A program made the position numbers and the translations under genes. A stretch of 51,308 nt of DNA from IMG/VR virus record IMGVR_UViG_3300006854_000010, positions 1 to 51,308 of that record, one strand, 5' to 3'. Shown piece by piece: positions 4,945 through 51,308 of this stretch (position 1 is its first letter; each line of letters begins with the position of its first letter). The notes below the pieces were generated by a model that was not told the origin of the DNA, made no database searches, and was given only the letters and a program-made list of their open reading frames with translations. Source of the DNA: a virus.

Positions 4945-5228
4945 ACGAAGGCCGCCTCCACGGCTTCGGTGCGCGCGATCTCTGCCAACCCAGCCGGCGT
5001 GATCACGAAGTCGCCGCGGCACCCGCAGGCGCAGCCGTCCACCCACTTGCGGCGGATTAGGCTACCCATCTCTGCCGGCACGAGCTTGTCAGGGCAGCCT
5101 AGCGGGAAAGCCTGGACGACGGTAGGCATCGCCAAGGCAACATCCGACGCGCCGTAGGTGTGCCACTGGCCGGGCCGCTCCGCAAGCAGCCTCAGAATCG
5201 GCATGCGGTCTATGTCCTTGCACTGCAT
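4941..5228 (-). CDS. Hypothetical protein, possible winged helix
   Basis: This encodes 95 residues from MQCKDIDRMPILRLLAERPG. The pattern of an N-terminal helix, then a short strand pair and CACGCRGDFVITPAGLAEIA, resembles small winged-helix DNA-binding proteins, with a Cys pair near residues 70-72. The start at 5228 is chosen because it nearly abuts the previous stop (5231); the longer frame overlaps that gene without reason. It is ATGA-coupled to the small terminase, so a packaging or regulatory role is possible but unproven. Confidence 0.6.
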   Translation of the reverse strand: MQCKDIDRMPILRLLAERPGQWHTYGASDVALAMPTVVQAFPLGCPDKLVPAEMGSLIRRKWVDGCACGCRGDFVITPAGLAEIARTEAVEAAFV

Positions 5229-5230
5229 GG

Positions 5231-5434
5231 TCAGCCCTCTATCCCGTAGAGCATGCGCCGGGCGGACTCCGCGGCGTTGCCTTCTATCCGCCAGTCGTGA
5301 CATAGCTTTAAGCGGTCCGCCATGGGCACAGAGCAATCGCGACATGCACGCCTCCAGCGCCAGTACGCCAACCTATTGCGGCGCAGTAGCATGGCCACGA
5401 TCTGGCGAGCGAGCTGGTTTTGCTTTGCGGCCAT
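5231..5434 (-). CDS. Small basic hypothetical protein
   Basis: This encodes 67 residues starting MAAKQNQLARQIVAMLLRRN. It is rich in Arg, with two Cys in WRRACRDCSVPM, and helical. The ATG at 5434 lies two bases after the stop of the 37-residue membrane peptide, which favours it over a GTG at 5464. Function is unknown. Confidence 0.6.
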   Translation of the reverse strand: MAAKQNQLARQIVAMLLRRNRLAYWRWRRACRDCSVPMADRLKLCHDWRIEGNAAESARRMLYGIEG

Positions 5435-5436
5435 GG

Positions 5437-5550
5437 CTACGAAACCAGCAATCGAGCCAGCCACAGCGACACCAAGCCGCCAGCCAATACGGACGCAACC
5501 GCCGCCAAGCCGACGATTTGACCCATCCAGTCACCTGCGGCAGAAGTCAT
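5437..5550 (-). CDS. 37-residue single-pass membrane peptide
   Basis: The peptide begins MTSAAGDWMGQIVGLAAVAS and carries one hydrophobic segment of about 24 residues (12-35). It fits exactly between the stop at 5553 and the start at 5434, with two-base gaps on both sides, which supports it being a gene. Small membrane peptides in phage operons can be holin-like, superinfection-related or of unknown role. Nothing here decides. Confidence 0.55.
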   Translation of the reverse strand: MTSAAGDWMGQIVGLAAVASVLAGGLVSLWLARLLVS

Positions 5551-5552
5551 GG

Positions 5553-5876
5553 TCAGATCAATTCCCCATGCAGCATCGGACGCAAAAGCTCAGGCGGGAT
5601 GCGGCATGCCTCATAAATCATGGTTCGCATGTCGGTCTGGAAGGCGGCGAAGTCGAAAACTGGCTGGCGTCTCTGCACAAAGAGAACCTCGCCGCTTTGC
5701 AGCACTGGCCACGGAAAAAGCACCGACCAGTCAGCCTCTGAAGCCGCCACGCCGCACCCGGCATGCAACATGCGCGGCTCATCGACCGGCGCCTCGTTGC
5801 CCAGCTGCAGCTTCGTGCGCTCCGTGACCAGAGCGAGGCGGCGTTGCGCGATCATGCGCTGCGCCGCGGTTTTCAT
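5553..5876 (-). CDS. Hypothetical protein
   Basis: This encodes 107 residues starting MKTAAQRMIAQRRLALVTER. A helical N-terminus is followed by a Trp/Pro-rich middle (DWSVLFPWPVLQSGEVLFVQ) and a helical C-terminus. The start codon overlaps the previous stop as ATGA. I do not recognise the family. Confidence 0.65.
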   Translation of the reverse strand: MKTAAQRMIAQRRLALVTERTKLQLGNEAPVDEPRMLHAGCGVAASEADWSVLFPWPVLQSGEVLFVQRRQPVFDFAAFQTDMRTMIYEACRIPPELLRPMLHGELI

Positions 5877-10578: not shown

Positions 10579-11169
10579 ATGATCGAGATCAAGCACCGCC
10601 ACACTGGCGCCGTACTCTACACGCACGACAACGCCAGCGGCATGACCATGCGCGATGCCGCGGAAGCCGCAGTCAAATCCAGGGCCAACCTGTACGGGGC
10701 CGACCTGTACGGGGCCAACCTGTACGGGGCCAACCTGTCCAGGGCCGACCTGTACGGGGCCGACCTGTACGGGGCCAACCTGTACGGGGCCAACCTGTCC
10801 GGGGCCAACCTGTACGGGGCCAACCTGTCTGGGGCCAACCTGTCCAGGGCTAACCTGTCCGGGGCCAACCTGTCCAGGGCCAACCTGTACGGGGCTAACC
10901 TGTACGGGGCCAACCTGTACGGAGACAAGATCGCCATATCTCCGCTGTCGCTCTCCGGTTTGCACTGGGATGTGACCGTCACCGAATTCAGGCTGCGGAT
11001 CGGTTACCAAGTTCATGCGCACGCCGCATGGCCCGGATTCAGCGCCAAGGAAATCGCGGCCATGGATAGCAAGGCCTCCGAATTTTGGACCGCCAACCGC
11101 GACATGCTGCTGATGATGTGTGCTGCGCAAGCAGCGCGAGCCGCAGCCGCCACCACGCCAACCATCTGA
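10579..11169 (+). CDS. Pentapeptide-repeat protein
   Basis: This encodes 196 residues. Residues about 35-114 are 16 uninterrupted A(N/D)L(Y/S)(G/R) pentapeptides, enough for four coils of the square right-handed beta helix. Residues 1-34 form a small cap, and about 115-196 an unrelated helical domain with [20 protein letters not shown]. Pentapeptide helices such as Qnr and MfpA mimic DNA duplex and bind topoisomerases; others have unknown roles. DNA mimicry here is only a hypothesis. The near-identical DNA units (10681-10920) suggest recent expansion or repeat-driven length change. Confidence 0.85.
10681..10920 (+). repeat. Sixteen tandem 15-bp repeats
   Basis: The unit is close to GGGCCAACCTGTACG, exactly 15 bp, repeated 16 times with only a few substituted positions (AAC/GAC, TAC/TCC/TCT, GGG/AGG). 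It encodes the pentapeptide coils. Conservation at the nucleotide level makes copy-number change by slippage likely. Confidence 0.95.
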
Positions 11170-13283: not shown

Positions 13284-14389
13284 GATGCGATCCCCAGAAT
13301 GCGCTCGAATCGCTCAGCCAGCACACGGTTTGCATCAGCCTTCTGCGCGCTGTCAGGCGTTCCTTTCGCCTCATGCAGCGCCTGGTAACGGCGCAGTGTT
13401 TCTGAGGCCAGAGTAAGTTCAGCTTCCAGGGACGCAATTCGAACCTTCTGTCGGGCCAGCTCAAACGCCTGCCTGCCGAGCCTGGCCACATCGTCCGGGT
13501 TGCTGCCGTCCAGTCGCGTCAGCGCGGTCACCTGCTCATCAGACATGGCCATGATCTTGTCGCAGTTGCTGTTTATGGCGGCCTGCAGCGCCGTGTCCAA
13601 TTTCTCGATGCGCTCCTTTGCTGCGTCGGCCACGTCTTCGGCGTGCCGGGCCTGGGCCGTCAGCGCCGCAATACGGGTATGCGCCATTTCTGCCACGCTC
13701 TTTGTGGACTCTTCCGCGTGCAGCAGCTTCGCCGTCAGCGCCGCCACCTCTGCAGCCCATTCTGTGCGCATCGCCTGGCGGCGGTCGTAGTGTTCGCGGA
13801 CATCGGCCTCCAGCGCCGAGATGCGCGCGCCCTTGGCCTCAAGGTCTTTTTGCAGCAGATCGCCACCATCCTCGGCAGCCGATAGCATGGCCTTCAGTTC
13901 CGCAATCTCCGCGTCCTTCGCTGCTTGTGCGTTGGATTGGCCAGCACACCAGTCCGCTAGCGCCTCAAAACAGCGGCGGAATTCTCTCCAGGTATCGCAA
14001 TACGGCAAAGAGCCGACCTCGCACTCGAATTTGTAGTCGCGCTCCAGGCACTCAGCGTAGGCGCGTCCGTTCTCGATTGCTCCCAGCGGCACGCCGGCCA
14101 GCATTGCCGCATCGCCAGCGGGCTGCGCGGCACGCACCTGCGGAGCGGCTGCTGGCGCCGGGCACTCGCTCGGGCAGCCGTGCAGACGCGCCTTGCACTC
14201 TTCCATGCACCCAAGGCGACATAGAGCGGCAGGCTGCGGCTCGACAGCCTGCCGCATTGCGCGGTACACGGAGTCGGCCGTGGCCATCAGGCTTTCGCGC
14301 GTGCCGCCAAGTCCGCAGTCACTCAGCGCCTGGGATCCAGCCTCCATCTGCGCGATGGAAGGGCCGTCTTCAGTTTGGTTCGTGGTCAT
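13280..14389 (-). CDS. Long coiled-coil hypothetical protein
   Basis: This encodes 369 residues from ATG at 14389 (ATGA overlap; the extension to 14455 is rejected). An N-terminal part has clustered Cys residues (about 45-75, CRLGCMEECKARLHGCPSEC) that could bind metal. A compact part follows (about 100-150), then a coiled coil of about 200 residues with regular Ala/Leu/Glu heptads. It resembles phage tether-like proteins of unknown role. It lies between putative replication genes. Confidence 0.65.
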   Translation of the reverse strand: MTTNQTEDGPSIAQMEAGSQALSDCGLGGTRESLMATADSVYRAMRQAVEPQPAALCRLGCMEECKARLHGCPSECPAPAAAPQVRAAQPAGDAAMLAGVPLGAIENGRAYAECLERDYKFECEVGSLPYCDTWREFRRCFEALADWCAGQSNAQAAKDAEIAELKAMLSAAEDGGDLLQKDLEAKGARISALEADVREHYDRRQAMRTEWAAEVAALTAKLLHAEESTKSVAEMAHTRIAALTAQARHAEDVADAAKERIEKLDTALQAAINSNCDKIMAMSDEQVTALTRLDGSNPDDVARLGRQAFELARQKVRIASLEAELTLASETLRRYQALHEAKGTPDSAQKADANRVLAERFERILGIAS

Positions 14390-14880
14390 TCGAATTCCTT
14401 CTGCGCACCTGGCGCGTATTTGCCGTGGCCCAATGCCTTGCGCCAGTCGTCGCATTCTTCAGCCGTCATCTTGCGCCCAGACGGCAATATGCCACCACGG
14501 TGCAGTTCACAATCCCTGCGCAGCCATGCCCACCTGCGCCCAGGAGATATTGCCATCATCTCGGCGCTCGGCTCATTCATTTTTGCTATCGCTTCGGCCA
14601 TGCGCTTTATGTCTGGCTTCGGCGCAGGCAGCATCATTACTGGCGCATCCGGGCATCGACGGCACAGGTCGCGGAACTGCATGCTGTTCGGCGGGAAGTC
14701 GCTCGGCAGGTTTGCCAATGCGTACTTGACGCGCCTGACAGTCATACCATCCAGGTCATCAGCCCATACTGACTTAACCTTGTCCATATCCATGCCGTCA
14801 AACTTCGCCAGCCACTGCGTTGTGTACGCAGCGGCCAGGCGAACGAACAGCATGTCAATATATTCTCTTGATGCCGGCAT
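14386..14880 (-). CDS. Helicase-loader-like replication protein (P-like)
   Basis: This encodes 164 residues from MPASREYIDMLFVRLAAAYT. The segment of about residues 10-75, with AAYTTQWLAKFDGMDMDKVK and then LANLPSDFPPNSMQFRDLCR, has the helical, Trp-spaced pattern of lambda P-like/replisome-organiser loader domains in phages of GC-rich hosts. Such proteins deliver the host helicase to the phage origin. There is no ATPase motif. It overlaps the gene at 14855 by 26 bp. The assignment is by pattern only. Confidence 0.5.
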   Translation of the reverse strand: MPASREYIDMLFVRLAAAYTTQWLAKFDGMDMDKVKSVWADDLDGMTVRRVKYALANLPSDFPPNSMQFRDLCRRCPDAPVMMLPAPKPDIKRMAEAIAKMNEPSAEMMAISPGRRWAWLRRDCELHRGGILPSGRKMTAEECDDWRKALGHGKYAPGAQKEFE

Positions 14881-15427
14881 CGTCGAACTCTACCGCGCCG
14901 CGTGATTGGGTCGCAGCGGCGCCGGGGGCAACGCGCTGCACGCGCTCGCGGGCCTCACGCTCACGCTTGGTTTCTGGCGTCAGTCTGGCGGGGTGAGGAA
15001 TAAGCCCGCGCTCGACAGCCCAGTCCAGCTTGAACCCGGCCCACCCCTGTTCTGCGCAGATCGTCACAAGCCTGGCCACCGTGATGCCGGCATCCTCGGC
15101 ATTGGCCTGGACGCGGCGCCATGCGGATCGCGTCAGCGGCAAACGCTTCTCCCGGCGCGCACGCAGCCAGCACTCAGCATCCAGCGCATCAACCCCGGCG
15201 CGGATCAGCTCGGCCGCGTTGACCGTCACGGCATTGTCGCCCACGGCCGGCTCCTTCTTGGCTCGCTTCGGATTTGCCTCTGCGCGACCAGCCGCCAGCC
15301 CTGCGCGGAAAACGGCATCCAGGCACACAAGCGCGCCTTCCGTGAGCATCCCCGTGCAGATGAGTTGGGCAGTGCTGGCTGCGTTGAATGCCGCGCTTGC
15401 GGCCTCGCGGATCTGCTCTGGAGTCAT
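14855..15427 (-). CDS. Replication-associated hypothetical protein
   Basis: This encodes 190 residues from MTPEQIREAASAAFNAASTA. It has an N-terminal helical domain, a Lys/Arg-rich middle, and a C-terminal WAGFKLDWAVERGLIPHPAR segment resembling the end of phage replication initiation (O-like) proteins. The ATG at 15427 overlaps the previous stop as ATGA. Position next to a loader-like gene supports a replication role, but no initiator fold is proven. Confidence 0.5.
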   Translation of the reverse strand: MTPEQIREAASAAFNAASTAQLICTGMLTEGALVCLDAVFRAGLAAGRAEANPKRAKKEPAVGDNAVTVNAAELIRAGVDALDAECWLRARREKRLPLTRSAWRRVQANAEDAGITVARLVTICAEQGWAGFKLDWAVERGLIPHPARLTPETKREREARERVQRVAPGAAATQSRGAVEFDDAGIKRIY

Positions 15428-15660
15428 TCGATGACCTGCCACGCCTTGGAGCCCAGGTTGACCTTGATCTTTCCGACCTTGCGCAGCGCCTGGAGCCGCT
15501 TGTCCACTACGCGGTACGCAGGGCATAGCATCGGGCTGGTGGTCTCCTCGAACTGCTTGCAGTCGGGCTCCAGGGCGATTGTCAGCGCCATGGCCGAGAC
15601 CTTGCCTGCGCGAATCAGGTCCGGCATCTTGGCATCAAATTCTGTATAGTCGTGCTTCAT
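15424..15660 (-). CDS. Small winged-helix protein
   Basis: This encodes 78 residues from MKHDYTEFDAKMPDLIRAGK. The C-terminal YRVVDKRLQALRKVGKIKVN followed by SKAWQV has a winged-helix recognition-helix/wing pattern. AAGGA lies about 5 bases upstream of the ATG at 15660, and a GC-rich hairpin lies just before it. It probably binds DNA, as part of replication initiation or regulation. Confidence 0.6.
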   Translation of the reverse strand: MKHDYTEFDAKMPDLIRAGKVSAMALTIALEPDCKQFEETTSPMLCPAYRVVDKRLQALRKVGKIKVNLGSKAWQVIE

Positions 15661-17395: not shown

Positions 17396-18054
17396 GCGCA
17401 CCTCTCTAAGTAAGTCTCTGGAATTGAATTCGGCTTTGGACTGAAGAAAACTACACCCAATGCATAGAGAGTAAAGACAGTTCTGAGCGAAGCGAAGGAC
17501 CGGGAAGACCCCCCTAACCCCCCGAGCGTGTTTGCTTGGGAGTGGGAGAACCACCCGTTTCCGGTTACAGGACCTGACCTTGCAGCCATCATGAGAATGC
17601 GCTTTGTGGTGCGCTCGTTGGCGCGTGTCGGCCTATCGTGCCCAGCGACTGCACGGATAGCGCAGCGCCATGGACCCCCTCAAGGGGGCGGCATCCATGC
17701 CTTTCCCGACATCTTCCCCACGCGTGTGCGCTCTTCCGATGAGCGCACCACAAAACACACTCTCAAGCTCCTATCCGCTATCCTGATAAGCCCCTGCGGT
17801 GCCGCGCATAGGTTGCATGGTTCGCTTTCGCGAGCGGCCGTCAGGCGCCAGACGTGACAAAGCCCCGAGAATGCTTGAGAGGGGCGTGACCCTGGCGTGG
17901 GCGATCTAGACACATGGACGAACCGGGAAGGCTCTGTGCTTCGACAACACACGCCCCTCTCAAAAACTCTAGGGGCTTCACCCAGTTCGTCCGTATGCCA
18001 AGGTCGCCAAACCTGACACGATCATCCTATCACACTTCCTGGCGCTCGCTCAAG
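17396..18054. other. 659-bp gene-free region rich in inverted repeats
   Basis: No frame here has a credible start, ribosome-binding site or protein-like composition. The stretch holds CCCCCTCAAGGGGG (about 17673-17686), an 8-bp hairpin GTGCGCTC/GAGCGCAC (17726-17748), GCTTTCGCGAGCG near 17824, and the element at 17860-17994. On the minus strand there is a GGGGGGTTAGGGGGG tract near 17510. It sits inside the leftward early block between the methyltransferase and the PAPS-reductase-like gene. It could be a replication origin, a structured RNA or both. Confidence 0.7.
17860..17994. ncRNA. Candidate structured RNA with pseudoknot
   Basis: Three nested or crossing stems are visible. AAGCCCC (17860-17866) pairs with GGGGCTT (17971-17977). 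TTGAGAGGGGCGTG (17875-17888) pairs perfectly with CACGCCCCTCTCAA (17950-17963). GGACGAACCGGG (17916-17927), in the loop of that stem, pairs with CCCAGTTCGTCC (17981-17992) outside it except for one position. Crossing of the last two makes a pseudoknot. Either strand could fold, because the odd pairs become G-U on one or the other. Expression is not shown by sequence alone; an origin with inverted repeats is the alternative. Confidence 0.45.
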
Positions 18055-18669
18055 TCAACCCCCTGCGTGATGCGTCAGATCAACATCGCATGCCACCTCG
18101 TTGCCCCAAACAGCCCAGCCGGCCCGCGGGCTGCGGGCGAACATCTCCAGGCGGGGCCCTGGGCTTACAGCCTCGACCATCGTGAAGAACTCTGGCGGCT
18201 TTGCGGAGTGCCGCGGGGCGCCATTGAAGTACGGCCGCTTCCAGTCGAACCAGGAGCGCCCAACACGCGACAGCGCCGTGGCACTGCCACGCCTGCAGAA
18301 CAGGCAGAACTCGCTCGACAGCCCGAACGAATCACCGCCCAGGCCGCCGCCCATCGTGGCCTTGGCCCACGTCAGCAGCGTGGACGGCTGGAATCCCCAT
18401 GCCCTCGCCACGGCGTACGATTGCTCGACATACTTGTTTATCGTCCACAGGTATAGGTGCGCATCCTTGTGCGCTATTGCTTCAACACCAAGCGACGCAA
18501 TGTCATTGACCGACATTGACGGATATGCAAGTTTTCGCGCAGCGTTGTCCGTCACGCCGAACACCTGTTTCCCATCTTGAACATCGTAGCACCCAATTGA
18601 TCGGCCGGCGCCGACTCGCCACGGCGGATCAGCCACGATGCACGAAAACCTGTGCTGTTCAATCGTCAC
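18055..18669 (-). CDS. MT-A70 family adenine methyltransferase
   Basis: This encodes 204 residues from GTG at 18669, with GGAG 8 bases upstream. The catalytic DPPW motif is at 14-17, and the MT-A70 pattern continues with the YLWTINKYVEQSYAVARAWG segment, a TWAKATMGGG loop and a C-terminal WGNEV. These enzymes make N6-methyladenine, usually in DNA for phage members, protecting against host restriction or marking origins. It overlaps the 30-residue Cys-rich gene by 11 bases. Confidence 0.9.
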   Translation of the reverse strand: MTIEQHRFSCIVADPPWRVGAGRSIGCYDVQDGKQVFGVTDNAARKLAYPSMSVNDIASLGVEAIAHKDAHLYLWTINKYVEQSYAVARAWGFQPSTLLTWAKATMGGGLGGDSFGLSSEFCLFCRRGSATALSRVGRSWFDWKRPYFNGAPRHSAKPPEFFTMVEAVSPGPRLEMFARSPRAGWAVWGNEVACDVDLTHHAGG

Positions 18670-18752: not shown

Positions 18753-19130
18753 TCACCCTCCTTTCGTTGGCGCGTTCTTCTCGCGGCAGATCGCCTCAAC
18801 CGCCTTCGCGAAGTGCAGCCAGCCCCACGTCCTCATGAAGCCGTCGAGCATATCGGGGAGCGACTGGAAAGCGTGCGTGCGATCCTCATCTGCCAGCGGC
18901 ACCCAGGCCTGCTTCGCCTCTGTCCGGCCGGACTCCAGGGCACCGATGCGCGCGCGCAGTGCTGCGACCGCGGCGAGGTGTGCCGCCTCTGTCACAAGGC
19001 CATACTCACCGACTGGCAGGCTCGCGGCGGCCCGCGTCCAGTAGTTCAGCTCGTTGCTTCTGGCGTACGATGTCATGGTGGCCACCACTGGTGCCGCATC
19101 TACGGCGGTGACTGATTTTTCGTCTGTCAT
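18753..19130 (-). CDS. Hypothetical protein
   Basis: This encodes 125 residues from MTDEKSVTAVDAAPVVATMT, with AAGGA before the ATG. The middle is helical (AAHLAAVAALRARIGALESG) and the C-terminal half is Trp-containing. The family is not recognised. Its ribosome-binding region (CCGAAGGAACGAC) is nearly identical to that of the gene at 19173. Confidence 0.65.
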   Translation of the reverse strand: MTDEKSVTAVDAAPVVATMTSYARSNELNYWTRAAASLPVGEYGLVTEAAHLAAVAALRARIGALESGRTEAKQAWVPLADEDRTHAFQSLPDMLDGFMRTWGWLHFAKAVEAICREKNAPTKGG

Positions 19131-19172
19131 GTCGTTCCTTCGGTTGGCGCGTCAACTATTTCGGAATGTTTG

Positions 19173-19388
19173 TCATAACAACTCTATCTGGTTGAATTTG
19201 AACAACCAGTATCTTGCATGGTACTGTTCAAGCACATCAACATCAGACCCTATTGCGCCAAACTGGCGCTCTAGTTTGAGAGTTGATTGCAGCACCGCAA
19301 ACAAATGTGGCTGCTGAAAAGACATAGCAATGTCTTCCTTCGCTTCATTTCTGAGCTTATCAATTACTCCCTGCGGGATGTTGGTCAT
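19173..19388 (-). CDS. Small hypothetical protein
   Basis: This encodes 71 residues from MTNIPQGVIDKLRNEAKEDI, with AAGGA upstream of the ATG at 19388. The same frame is open to an ATG at 19529 that overlaps the preceding stop as ATGA, which would give 118 residues. I prefer the shorter start because of its ribosome-binding site, but both may be used. Function is unknown. Confidence 0.55.
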   Translation of the reverse strand: MTNIPQGVIDKLRNEAKEDIAMSFQQPHLFAVLQSTLKLERQFGAIGSDVDVLEQYHARYWLFKFNQIELL

Positions 19389-19525
19389 ATCGTTCCTTCG
19401 GTTTGTGAATTGACTTCTGACCAGTGCGTGATCAGGCACCTCGATCATGGGCGGCTGGGATGAGATTGGCCAGCGCATGCCTATATAGCTGTGCTGGGCG
19501 AGTCGGAGCGCTAAGAGCGGGCGGG

Positions 19526-19882
19526 TCATGTCAGAAGTCCCAGGGGGGGGGTAGTGGTCGGGGCCGATCCTTTGCGGAGCGGGATCACATCTATGTCGAG
19601 CCATCCATCGCGCGTTGCGATGGCGGCGGCCATGTTTGCGGATGATTCGATTGAAAGCGGCCGGCACACGCGCACTTTCTTTGTCGTGCGGCGCCAATGG
19701 TCGGGATCCCACATGTCTGGCGACTTCGAGCCGGCACCGACTGCGATTGCGCGGGCGGTGGCATCGTGCGAGTTCCAGACTTGCCACGCGCGTTCGTTCG
19801 CCTGTTTGGCGCGCTCCAGTGCGCCGGGCGGATGGCCGACTACCTGGTAGCCTTTGTCGAATGACTTTGCTGACTTACTCAT
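19526..19882 (-). CDS. First gene of the leftward early block, hypothetical
   Basis: This encodes 118 residues from MSKSAKSFDKGYQVVGHPPG, with AGGA 7-8 bases before the ATG. It is helical at first, then has a WDPDHWRRTTKKVRVCRPLS segment. The 3' end contains a run of nine C (19552-19560 as G on the plus strand), prone to slippage. It lies just downstream of the promoter at 19912-19956. Early position suggests host takeover or regulation, without direct evidence. Confidence 0.6.
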   Translation of the reverse strand: MSKSAKSFDKGYQVVGHPPGALERAKQANERAWQVWNSHDATARAIAVGAGSKSPDMWDPDHWRRTTKKVRVCRPLSIESSANMAAAIATRDGWLDIDVIPLRKGSAPTTTPPLGLLT

Positions 19883-19900
19883 CTCGGCATCCTTTCTGCT

Positions 19901-19920
19901 TGCAATAGCAGATTATTGCA
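19901..19920. promoter_or_regulatory. Palindromic operator candidate
   Basis: TGCAATA-GCAGAT-TATTGCA is a perfect 7-bp inverted repeat. Its right arm covers the -10 hexamer of the leftward promoter at 19912-19956. A dimeric repressor or activator could bind here. Confidence 0.45.
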
Positions 19921-19956
19921 CCATTGACCGCGCCGCAGAATGGCTTTTGCTATCTG
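19912..19956 (-). promoter_or_regulatory. Leftward promoter of the GATAG-box family (copy d)
   Basis: On the minus strand CAGATAGCAAAAGCCATTC (19938-19956) is followed 23 nt after AAAAGCCA by AATAAT (19912-19917). The arrangement is the same as in copies b and c. It should drive the early block starting at 19882. Confidence 0.6.
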
Positions 19957-19968
19957 CTGGCGCGCAGT

Positions 19969-20014
19969 CGATTGAGTAAATCAATCGCGTGGCGGCAGGT
20001 GGCGGCGGTACAGT
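19969..20014 (+). promoter_or_regulatory. Rightward promoter/operator candidate
   Basis: CGATTGA-GTAAA-TCAATCG (19969-19987) is a perfect 7-bp inverted repeat. It partly resembles the GATAG box and is followed after 25 nt by TACAGT (20009-20014). The gene at 20039 begins about 25 bases further on. The palindrome may be an operator rather than a promoter box. Confidence 0.4.
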
Positions 20015-25860: not shown

Positions 25861-26237
25861 CAATTGCCGAGATACGCGCCGTTGTTGCGCGGCGCACCTA
25901 CAAACCTGGATGGCAACTCACAGTCAACGCGAACTCTGACGGGTCTAGGCCGTACCTGCAACTGCACGTCACGGCTGCCATTTGCTCTGTATCTCTGGAG
26001 CCGTGCGAATGGAAGTCCGCCAAGCACTACCTGTCTGAGTTCATGTGTAAACAGGAGCTTGTCGGCGTATGCTTCAAGGCCATTCAGCAGGCAGAAGAGC
26101 ACGAGTTGCGCGAGTTCTTCAGGCACCGCGGCGTGCGCATATTCAATCCCCACATCGACCCAGATGCGCTGGTGAGCGTGGCCCACATCGAAGACACCAG
26201 AACCGAGCCGGTGCTGATGAAAGAGGGCCGGCCATGA
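25857..26237 (+). CDS. Hypothetical protein
   Basis: This encodes 126 residues from MTIAEIRAVVARRTYKPGWQ (ATGA overlap; the longer frame to 25791 is rejected). The central QLHVTAAICSVSLEPCEWKS is strand-rich and the C-terminal half helical. No family was recognised. It precedes a cupin-like gene. Confidence 0.65.
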   Translation: MTIAEIRAVVARRTYKPGWQLTVNANSDGSRPYLQLHVTAAICSVSLEPCEWKSAKHYLSEFMCKQELVGVCFKAIQQAEEHELREFFRHRGVRIFNPHIDPDALVSVAHIEDTRTEPVLMKEGRP

Positions 26238-26671
26238 TCGATAGATTCATCAGGCGCGTCACGGCTCGCCCGCCTGATCGCGTGATCGGTGGGCACGATG
26301 ACCCATACATGCTGCGCTGGTACATCCTCCCGCGCAACAGGCTGTTCAACGTCTACCTGCACCGCTTTCTGCGCAGCGATGATGATAGGGCGATGCATGA
26401 TCATCCGTTCTATAATACGTCGGTCCTACTTCGAGGCTCCTACATGGAGCACACCACAAATGGCTCGTTTGAGCGCAGCGTTTGTGATGTCGTCTTCCGC
26501 CGTGGTGTGACGCTGCACCGCATCGAGCTGCATAAAGGCCCAGCGTGGAGCCTGTTTGTAACGTCATTCAGGTACAGGGAGTGGGGGTTTGCTTGCCAAA
26601 AAGGATGGAGGCACTGGAAACAGTTTGTAGATGAGCGCGACAATGGCGCAATTGGAAGGGGGTGTGATTGA
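26234..26671 (+). CDS. Cupin-like metal-binding protein
   Basis: This encodes 145 residues from MIDRFIRRVTARPPDRVIGG. The core MHDHPFYNTSVLLRGSYMEH (about 54-73) followed by RRGVTLHRIELHKG (about 90-103) gives the H-x-H and later His of cupin metal sites on a double-stranded beta helix. Cupins range from enzymes to binding proteins; substrate is unknown. The TGA overlaps the next ATG as TGATG. Confidence 0.6.
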   Translation: MIDRFIRRVTARPPDRVIGGHDDPYMLRWYILPRNRLFNVYLHRFLRSDDDRAMHDHPFYNTSVLLRGSYMEHTTNGSFERSVCDVVFRRGVTLHRIELHKGPAWSLFVTSFRYREWGFACQKGWRHWKQFVDERDNGAIGRGCD

Positions 26672-29370: not shown

Positions 29371-29631
29371 TCACTTCGGCCACGATGCGATGACCTTGAC
29401 TCCTTGTGCATCGCACAGCCCCAGCGCAGCCTCTGCGCGCAACAGCCGCTCTTCGGCCTGACGCACTGTCATCGCATCCGGTGGCGCCTCAAGGCTGCAC
29501 GGCGCCCACGTCGGCGCCGGCATCGACACCGGAGGCGTCGCGGAGCTTGCGCAGCCGGTCACCGAGCCCAGGCAGCACCACATCGCGAACGTCAACACCT
29601 TGCGGGCACTGGAGCGGCTCAGCGGGGACAT
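29371..29631 (-). CDS. Rz1: Outer-membrane spanin (Rz1 lipoprotein)
   Basis: This encodes 86 residues. A signal peptide (KVLTFAMWCCLGSVTGC) ends in a lipobox with Cys27, followed by a Pro-rich periplasmic domain. It starts inside Rz in another frame and extends beyond it. Together with Rz it fuses inner and outer membranes in the last step of lysis. Its C-terminal half is unusually long and helical for Rz1. Confidence 0.85.
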   Translation of the reverse strand: MSPLSRSSARKVLTFAMWCCLGSVTGCASSATPPVSMPAPTWAPCSLEAPPDAMTVRQAEERLLRAEAALGLCDAQGVKVIASWPK

Positions 29632-49959: not shown

Positions 49960-51308
49960 GCTTTGACCAAGTTGGCAACGGTCTGCGATGCCATCTGCGC
50001 ATCCTGCAGCGCCGCTTGTTGCTGCGCCTGGTCGTCCTGTGCCTTCTCGGCGGCCTCGATGGCCTCTGGTTTGCGCAGCCAAGCCATCGGGAAGCGCTTG
50101 CCGATCAGGGCATCGCGGAGCGCCGGCTTGATGTCGATCACCAGCGGGGCATTCGGATCCATCGCGGAGGCGCGCTGCGCCAGCTCGATACCCTGAGCCA
50201 GCATCTCAGACTTGGCGCTATCCTGAGCCTCACGAATCGGGTTGCGGAAGCGGAACTGCACATCGGCGCCCCGGAGCGAGTCCGGCATCTGCTCAGGCGG
50301 GCCAAACGCGCCCTCCTGTAGCAGCACCTCAAAAGTACGCTCTTCCACGCCACCAGAGTATTCATCCTCCACCGGAGAGAATAGGTCGCTCACGTTGCGG
50401 ATGTACTCCTGCACACGTTGGGCGAACTCGTAGGCCGTTGTCTGCGTACCATCTCGCACCGGTAGGCGCAACTTGTCCAGGTAGAACGCCATCCGAATCA
50501 GGTTTTCGCAGTTGGCCTGCATCTGCAAACCTATCGGCAGCCCCGACTTGTCGATCTGGATGGCCTCCAGGGCGCTGTGCTTGCCGTCATATGCCGCCGT
50601 GCGCCATGTCACGCCGCCAGCGTAGAGGTTCAGGTCGCCGCGTACCACGTCTTCAATGGCCAGCGTCGGCGGGTTGGCCGCCTTCTCTGCGGCTGTCAGC
50701 ATGGTCAACACCATGGCCTGCAGCAAGCGCGACTCAGGAAGTGCGCATTCAACCGCGGGACTCAAGGCGTACTGGCATCCCTTCACCCGGCGCCAGCGCG
50801 GCAAAACATATTCCATGGAGCGAGCCCCGACGCACTCCAGCTCGCTGCAGTCGCTCTTTACAACGTGGATCGACACATACTTCGTCCGAAACTTTGTCTC
50901 GGCGTACATGTCGGTTGGCACAACCATGTGAATGCATTCGATGCGCTCCATGCGCCCGCGCTTCTCGCGCCACTTCGATTGCAGGCTGAGGCTCAGTTTC
51001 TCCAGGCCGAACTTCTCAACCAACTGCTGCAAGCGCGGGCTCCAGCGGCGGAACACCATGTTCGGCCGACCGTTGATCCCGTCCGTCCACACCACATCCC
51101 GCATGTGCCAGCCCTGGTACAGCAGCCCCGAGCGGTCCGGCATCGCGTTCACGGAGATGGCAGCGTTGCCGATCAGGCTGATATCGCGGTCCGCCTCTTT
51201 CATCACGGCGCCGAACTGCGCTGGCCGGTGCATCTTGGCGCGGTGCTGCACGCCGCTCGCCCACTGCAGCCAGGCCAGCCCGTCATGGTCCTTGAGACCC
51301 TCGACGTA
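49956..51308 (-). CDS. Portal (head-tail connector), main part
   Basis: This is the remaining 450-codon part of the 534-residue portal; its N-terminus is at 1-332 after circular closure (80 bp are shared). It contains the wing and clip regions (for example FRRWSPRLQQLVEKFGLEKL) and the DGTQTTAYEFAQRVQEYIRN stretch of the stem region found in T7-type connectors. It docks the terminase and the tail adaptor. Confidence 0.85.
   Translation of the reverse strand, partial: YVEGLKDHDGLAWLQWASGVQHRAKMHRPAQFGAVMKEADRDISLIGNAAISVNAMPDRSGLLYQGWHMRDVVWTDGINGRPNMVFRRWSPRLQQLVEKFGLEKLSLSLQSKWREKRGRMERIECIHMVVPTDMYAETKFRTKYVSIHVVKSDCSELECVGARSMEYVLPRWRRVKGCQYALSPAVECALPESRLLQAMVLTMLTAAEKAANPPTLAIEDVVRGDLNLYAGGVTWRTAAYDGKHSALEAIQIDKSGLPIGLQMQANCENLIRMAFYLDKLRLPVRDGTQTTAYEFAQRVQEYIRNVSDLFSPVEDEYSGGVEERTFEVLLQEGAFGPPEQMPDSLRGADVQFRFRNPIREAQDSAKSEMLAQGIELAQRASAMDPNAPLVIDIKPALRDALIGKRFPMAWLRKPEAIEAAEKAQDDQAQQQAALQDAQMASQTVANLVKA
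51229..51308. repeat. Terminal direct repeat (right copy)
   Basis: This copy is identical to bases 1-80. See the left copy for interpretation. Confidence 0.95.

Follow-up and report, generated by a model that had tools for sequence, protein, structure and literature searches.

A predicted pseudoknotted RNA in an intergenic region of a phage genome and elements of the same architecture in other phages

The put RNAs of phage HK022 are approximately 70 nt in all and comprise two nested stem-loops with no terminal U-run (PMC9378689), and the antitoxin RNAs of type III and AbiF systems are characterized by repeated motifs and an accompanying toxin gene (PMC12373285). The noncoding RNAs of phages have been catalogued poorly, and a family that keeps its fold while its helices are replaced completely escapes searches by sequence. 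In this study, we analysed an intergenic region of a viral DNA of 51,308 nucleotides (IMG/VR record IMGVR_UViG_3300006854_000010; the whole stretch is termed the window), for which a first-pass annotation had predicted either a pseudoknotted RNA or a structured origin. The region appears to hold an undescribed phage RNA element, because the same fold recurs in other phages with matched base changes. No description of such an element was found in the literature searched, the coverage of which was incomplete. No Rfam 15 model, including those of GOLLD, ROOL, group I and II introns and tmRNA, matched at the gathering threshold, and permissive filters returned only chance-level matches. Readings as a group I or II intron, a retron, a DGR or a tRNA-like element were dropped for want of an Rfam match, and self-comparison of the window revealed no template-variable repeat pair of the DGR type.

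The window is probably a complete genome, since positions 1-80 and 51229-51308 form an identical 80-bp terminal direct repeat. Its terminase is approximately 40% identical to those of Limnohabitans phage DC33 (L073, PQ492659.1), Bordetella phage BPP-1 and Acidovorax phage AP1, and a first search for relatives based on TerL found none. DC33 is recorded as a member of the Inoviridae, and its 39-kb genome and large terminase are ill-suited to a filamentous phage. Within positions 1-25000 the sole near-identity match to known phages is tandem pentapeptide-repeat DNA at 10678-10922, which is 86-89% identical to Caulobacter phages Jess A, RapA and BL94. A cysteine dioxygenase-like gene (26069-26671) adjoins HNH genes, and together with the PAPS-reductase-like gene discussed below it constitutes unusual phage cargo.

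Crossing helices and the second domain in the window

The intergenic region that contains the whole structured RNA (17428-18054, minus strand) is flanked by a DNA methyltransferase gene (MT-A70, 18055-18669, minus strand) and a PAPS-reductase-like gene (16607 to approximately 17395, minus strand). The first-pass annotation recorded no gene at the crossing repeats, and no open reading frame over the region matches a PHROG family. The perfect 14-bp stem at 17875-17888/17950-17963 is present as claimed. The 7-bp stem that was said to enclose it also exists, with its partner at 17972-17978, one base from the position first given; instead of enclosing the 14-bp stem, it belongs with it to a single helix, Pb (17860-17888/17950-17978; 29 nt, 86% complementary). 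On the minus strand Pb extends to as many as 33 nt (17982-17950/17888-17856), made up of 26 Watson-Crick pairs, five G-U pairs and two mismatches, with no A-C. Its 5' arm thus lies at 17950-17982 and, at full length, overlaps the second helix by 2 nt; its 3' arm lies at 17856-17888. The reported 12-nt crossing pairing (17916-17927/17981-17992) has 11 Watson-Crick pairs out of 12 and is the inner part of this second helix, Pa, which comprises a 28-nt 5' arm at 17981-18008 and a 3' arm at 17900-17927. Both helices are therefore longer than first reported. The hairpin loop is predicted from the sequence to pair outside the hairpin, which is the arrangement of an H-type pseudoknot. Pa and Pb, two helices of 25-30 bp, may form in succession and not together.

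The earlier judgement that such an arrangement is unlikely to arise by chance was borne out. With scores of 111 (minus strand) and 93 (plus strand), Pa and Pb are the strongest crossing pair of the 51-kb window (runner-up 62.5 on the minus and 75 on the plus strand). None of 400 dinucleotide shuffles reached 111, the shuffle maximum being 48, and none of 1000 reached the observed score in an earlier shuffle test. Both helices are completed by G-U pairs on the minus strand, which also folds better than the plus strand over 163 nt (z = -4.3 versus -3.0) and over 611 nt (z = -5.4 versus -3.4). The G-U pairs and the folding energies favour the minus strand, which is also that of the flanking genes.

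Approximately 95 nt from the Pa/Pb element, a 30-nt closing helix (17765-17736/17621-17592) bounds a second structured domain with a branched core (17592-17765, minus strand). Upstream of the crossing helices, a 33-nt block (18045-18077, minus strand) holds TTGACTTGAGC and extends at its 5' side into the end of the methyltransferase ORF. The block is identical to positions 1098-1130 of a related phage contig, L005, despite the different upstream gene there, and is probably an upstream promoter region. It occurs once in the window when sought as a repeated phage promoter; an unrelated contig also carries its middle within a promoter-like site, probably by chance. A candidate sigma70-like promoter, TTGAGC-N18-TAGGAT, is located at 18024-18053 on the minus strand (-35 at 18053-18048, -10 at 18029-18024); it shows eight of 12 matches, is equalled by 8% of shuffles and ends 15 nt before the first helix. 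A G-run motif, GGGGGGTTAGGGGGG, is found at 17514-17528 (minus strand), and L005 has GGGGGTAAGGGGGG after its core domain.

The same architecture in other phages

The genes that neighbour the element are 83-92% identical in the window and L005. The methyltransferase gene is absent from L005, and an HNH endonuclease gene (1658-2515), absent from the window, separates the structured RNA from the PAPS-reductase gene. Over the pseudoknot the alignment of the two scores -8.5, against -10.4 (sd 4.0) for shuffled sequence, so that the L005 sequence is here no closer to the window than shuffled sequence is. L005 nevertheless carries crossing helices (1175-1187/1245-1257 crossing 1206-1219/1267-1280), the top-scoring crossing pair of that contig, and their order and strand match those of the window. 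In both phages a second branched domain follows the knot, and the core of the window's domain is 82% identical to L005 1299-1455 (157 nt), with some pairs changed on both sides.

A blind crossing-helix scan of 633 kb of fetched loci gave top or near-top ranks to the window, L006 and L005. L006, the other phage with a PAPS-reductase gene, ranked first (4979-5003/5048-5072 crossing 5009-5036/5084-5111; score 96), and its element is intergenic and lies elsewhere in the genome. Hundreds of noncoding bases lie 3' of the element in both L005 and L006. Those of L006 include approximately 450 strongly structured ones at 5110-5570; these contain a 22-nt closing helix (5305-5326/5418-5439), the outer part of which is similar to that of the second domain in the window. 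Crossing-helix matches in four further contigs were discarded, two (L024 and L026) as tandem-repeat artefacts and two (L060 and L069) because they look like G+C-rich coding noise.

Among eight phage genomes, namely Caulobacter phage Jess A and seven newly fetched genomes, the top match was in Pseudomonas phage AH02 (L078; 22674-22552, minus strand), which has a second element at 29522-29622 on the plus strand; the two are designated AH02_1 and AH02_2. Each occupies either a gap between annotated genes or the place of a tiny hypothetical ORF, and one belongs to a leftward, the other to a rightward early operon. The ORF overlapped by 22674-22552, gene 28, may not be a real gene. Similarity searches from the AH02 elements led to Leptolyngbya phage Lbo-JY16 (71.5% over 123 nt) and to Pseudomonas phages Orisa01-03 and Orimi01, and the crossing arrangement is present in every one of these members that was read. 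Several members were thus reached by similarity to earlier matches and are not independent. A descriptor that combines crossing helices of defined minimum length (10 bp for Pa, 19 bp for Pb) with a U-run of at least seven T in eight bases after Pb matched, in approximately 1.6 Mb of viral DNA, only L005, L006, AH02 (twice), Lbo-JY16 and Orisa03. As no false match rose above the threshold in that DNA, the class can be surveyed at scale by this geometric descriptor.

The first-pass annotation had looked to relatives for compensatory changes, the absence of which would speak against it; such changes are found, and base pairs are kept through them as in structured noncoding RNAs. Between AH02_2 and Lbo-JY16, seven of the 19 pairs of Pb differ in both partners and none differs in one partner only; Pa hardly varies, and a third helix, UCAGC/GCUGA in one and UCAGU/ACUGA in the other, contains one compensatory pair. 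Taken over the whole pseudoknot, pairing amounts to 97%, compared with 32-47% when the partners are slid. Helix P0, GUGGAAC/GUUCCAC in Orisa and AH02_1, becomes GUGAGAC/GUCUCAC in Orimi01 through two double changes. The core domain of the window and L005 likewise keeps pairs through such changes. The pseudoknotted RNA is supported: its fold recurs in relatives with compensation, and the minus strand is the better folder.

The members fall into three subfamilies (window/L005/L006, AH02_1/Orisa/Orimi and AH02_2/Lbo). A covariance model of AH02_2/Lbo (R2) detected no sequence link between them, and we therefore claim one architecture and not one family; as judged from the sequences, homology is shown within subfamilies only. 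The subfamilies may be convergent, because what they have in common is the architecture, with no shared sequence visible to the covariance model. Searches further afield added no members. Model R1, built on the core domain, found nothing beyond the window and L005 in 46 sources and nothing in 399 genomes of the order of the Burkholderia genome; R2 likewise detected nothing in 369 genomes of its class, and a search of 369 genomes for the motif common to AH02_1 and Orisa gave two matches only, both inside apparent coding genes. Pattern scans of viral contigs for core-domain motifs gave only L005/L050 and coding-sequence coincidences, which R1 did not support, and genome-scan matches to the core lay in genes with no second core match, two of them looking by eye like a transporter gene.

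Promoter-like sites, U-runs and competing readings

Sigma70-like sites are present 15-39 nt before Pa in seven of the eight members. In five of the eight, at most 3% of shuffles are as good or better; the sites of L005 and AH02_2 are not significant, and neither is that of the window taken alone (8%). On the other side of the element, the helix is directly followed by a U-run in L005 and L006 (UUUUUCUUUG) and in both AH02 elements, Lbo, Orisa and Orimi (at least six U). In the window, Pb is followed by UUUGUC only, a weak U-run; termination is therefore least certain there, and the weak U-run suggests that transcription of the window usually continues into the second domain. The downstream gene varies: it encodes an HNH endonuclease in three members (AH02_1, Orisa03 and L005), an antirepressor in Orimi01, an O-like protein in L006 and proteins of unknown families in AH02_2 and Lbo, and PAPS reductase also occurs.

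These features bear on the structured origin that the first-pass annotation had offered as its second possibility. A DNA-level structure, be it a replication origin or a packaging or recombination site, would have the crossing palindromes function as cruciforms or as sites for proteins. The leftward operon around the element encodes a polynucleotide kinase as well as O-like and P-like replication genes, the latter two at 14386-15526, approximately 2.5 kb from the element, and the GC skew changes sign near 19 kb (19000-20000), where transcription diverges and where an origin or regulatory region is possible; both observations are in keeping with an origin. Yet no iterons or other repeat family of initiator sites were found at 17500-18400, the helices are better on one strand through G-U pairing, which favours RNA (111 versus 93 in the window; -76.9 versus -60.3 kcal/mol on the opposite strand in L005), and most members occupy different genomic places and gene neighbourhoods, with promoter and U-run signatures. 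We consider a DNA-level function very unlikely.

The reading that we favour, by a little over an even chance, is that of a knotted phage noncoding RNA with its own promoter, in which Pb serves as a terminator or attenuator and the short RNA is itself a product. It builds on what can be read from the sequences, namely the fold, the strand preference, the conservation with compensation, the varied gene settings and the U-run of the other members, and adds to these a putative promoter, putative termination and a presumed order of folding during transcription. The minus-strand RNA would start near 18017, and its first 160 nt or so would constitute the pseudoknot, 5' Pa - Pb - Pa' - Pb' 3'. Pa would close first during transcription, so that its loop contains the 5' arm of Pb, and Pb would zip up once its own 3' arm emerges. 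Because the base of Pb meets a U-run in the other members, Pb may also act as the RNA's own terminator or attenuator; there, the product would be a rigid, stable RNA of approximately 110-150 nt with its own promoter, and read-through would supply the early gene that follows. The RNA of the window and that of L005 would extend into the second branched domain. The members lack a constant partner gene, and a putative promoter accompanies each copy; both points favour an RNA that is its own product, and not only a cis leader. Such an RNA would be trans-acting and probably protein-binding.

The possibility of a cis-acting leader, with no role for the RNA beyond its own transcript, is a real if doubtful one. 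The knot would then stand at the beginning of an early transcript, as a regulated attenuator or as an antitermination element of the put type, and formation of Pa or Pb, or contact of the nascent knot with RNA polymerase, would set read-through into the operon. The elements do lie just downstream of promoter-like sites; moreover, such a leader is favoured by the closeness of the next start codon (approximately 15-25 nt past the U-run in AH02, Lbo, Orisa and Orimi) and by the presence of one copy in each early operon of AH02, leftward and rightward, like putL and putR of HK022 (PMC9378689). However, the downstream genes differ between members, hundreds of noncoding bases follow the element in L005 and L006, and put RNAs of some 70 nt have two stem-loops and no pseudoknot.

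The order of parts, with a promoter, an RNA of 100-150 nt, a terminator and a gene, also recalls RCd22-AbiF (PMC12373285), and the element could be conceived as the RNA of a type III toxin-antitoxin or AbiF-like unit in which a leaky terminator precedes a toxin gene. This seems scarcely probable: the region has no tandem repeats of a 34-50-nt motif, and the genes downstream are HNH, antirepressor, O-like and unknown ones. No toxin gene of the ToxN/AbiQ or Abi_2 type was recognized downstream, no Abi_2 protein is found in the window or in the Lbo-JY16, Orisa03 and AH02 records, and PADLOC returned only weak HNH or homing-endonuclease matches.

If it is transcribed, the noncoding RNA favoured here would point either to a family of small phage RNAs with a high degree of structure or to control of termination by knotting of the terminator hairpin, and both possibilities are testable in Pseudomonas phages. 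Tentatively, and with somewhat less assurance than for the reading of the window itself, we suggest that such "knotted terminator" RNAs could constitute a new architecture class used by unrelated phages: a long terminator helix would pass through another long helix, the RNAs would be short and stable or act as early-operon switches, and the sequence would turn over completely while the fold is maintained.

Comparison with known systems

The elements share with HK022 putL and putR a structured RNA near the start of the early transcript and, in AH02, one copy per early operon. They differ in size (107-167 nt) and by the presence of crossing helices, 10-29 bp long, and of a U-run in the other members, and identity with put was rejected since the fold departs from the put description (PMC9378689). 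GOLLD, ROOL and OLE are likewise large, structured, pseudoknotted noncoding RNAs of phages or bacteria, and the branched second domain of the window and L005 adds to the likeness; the RNA described here is smaller, has another architecture and matches no Rfam model. With RCd22, the RNA of a phage-encoded AbiF system, and with ToxI, the elements have in common a putative promoter of their own, a structured RNA of approximately 100 nt, a candidate intrinsic terminator (least certain in the window) and a downstream gene, whereas they contain neither repeats nor a toxin gene and their helices are much longer. Finally, the other members resemble intrinsic terminators in that a G+C-rich or long helix is followed by a U-run, but here the hairpin loop measures approximately 40-60 nt and its content is paired, through Pa, with sequence 5' of the hairpin.
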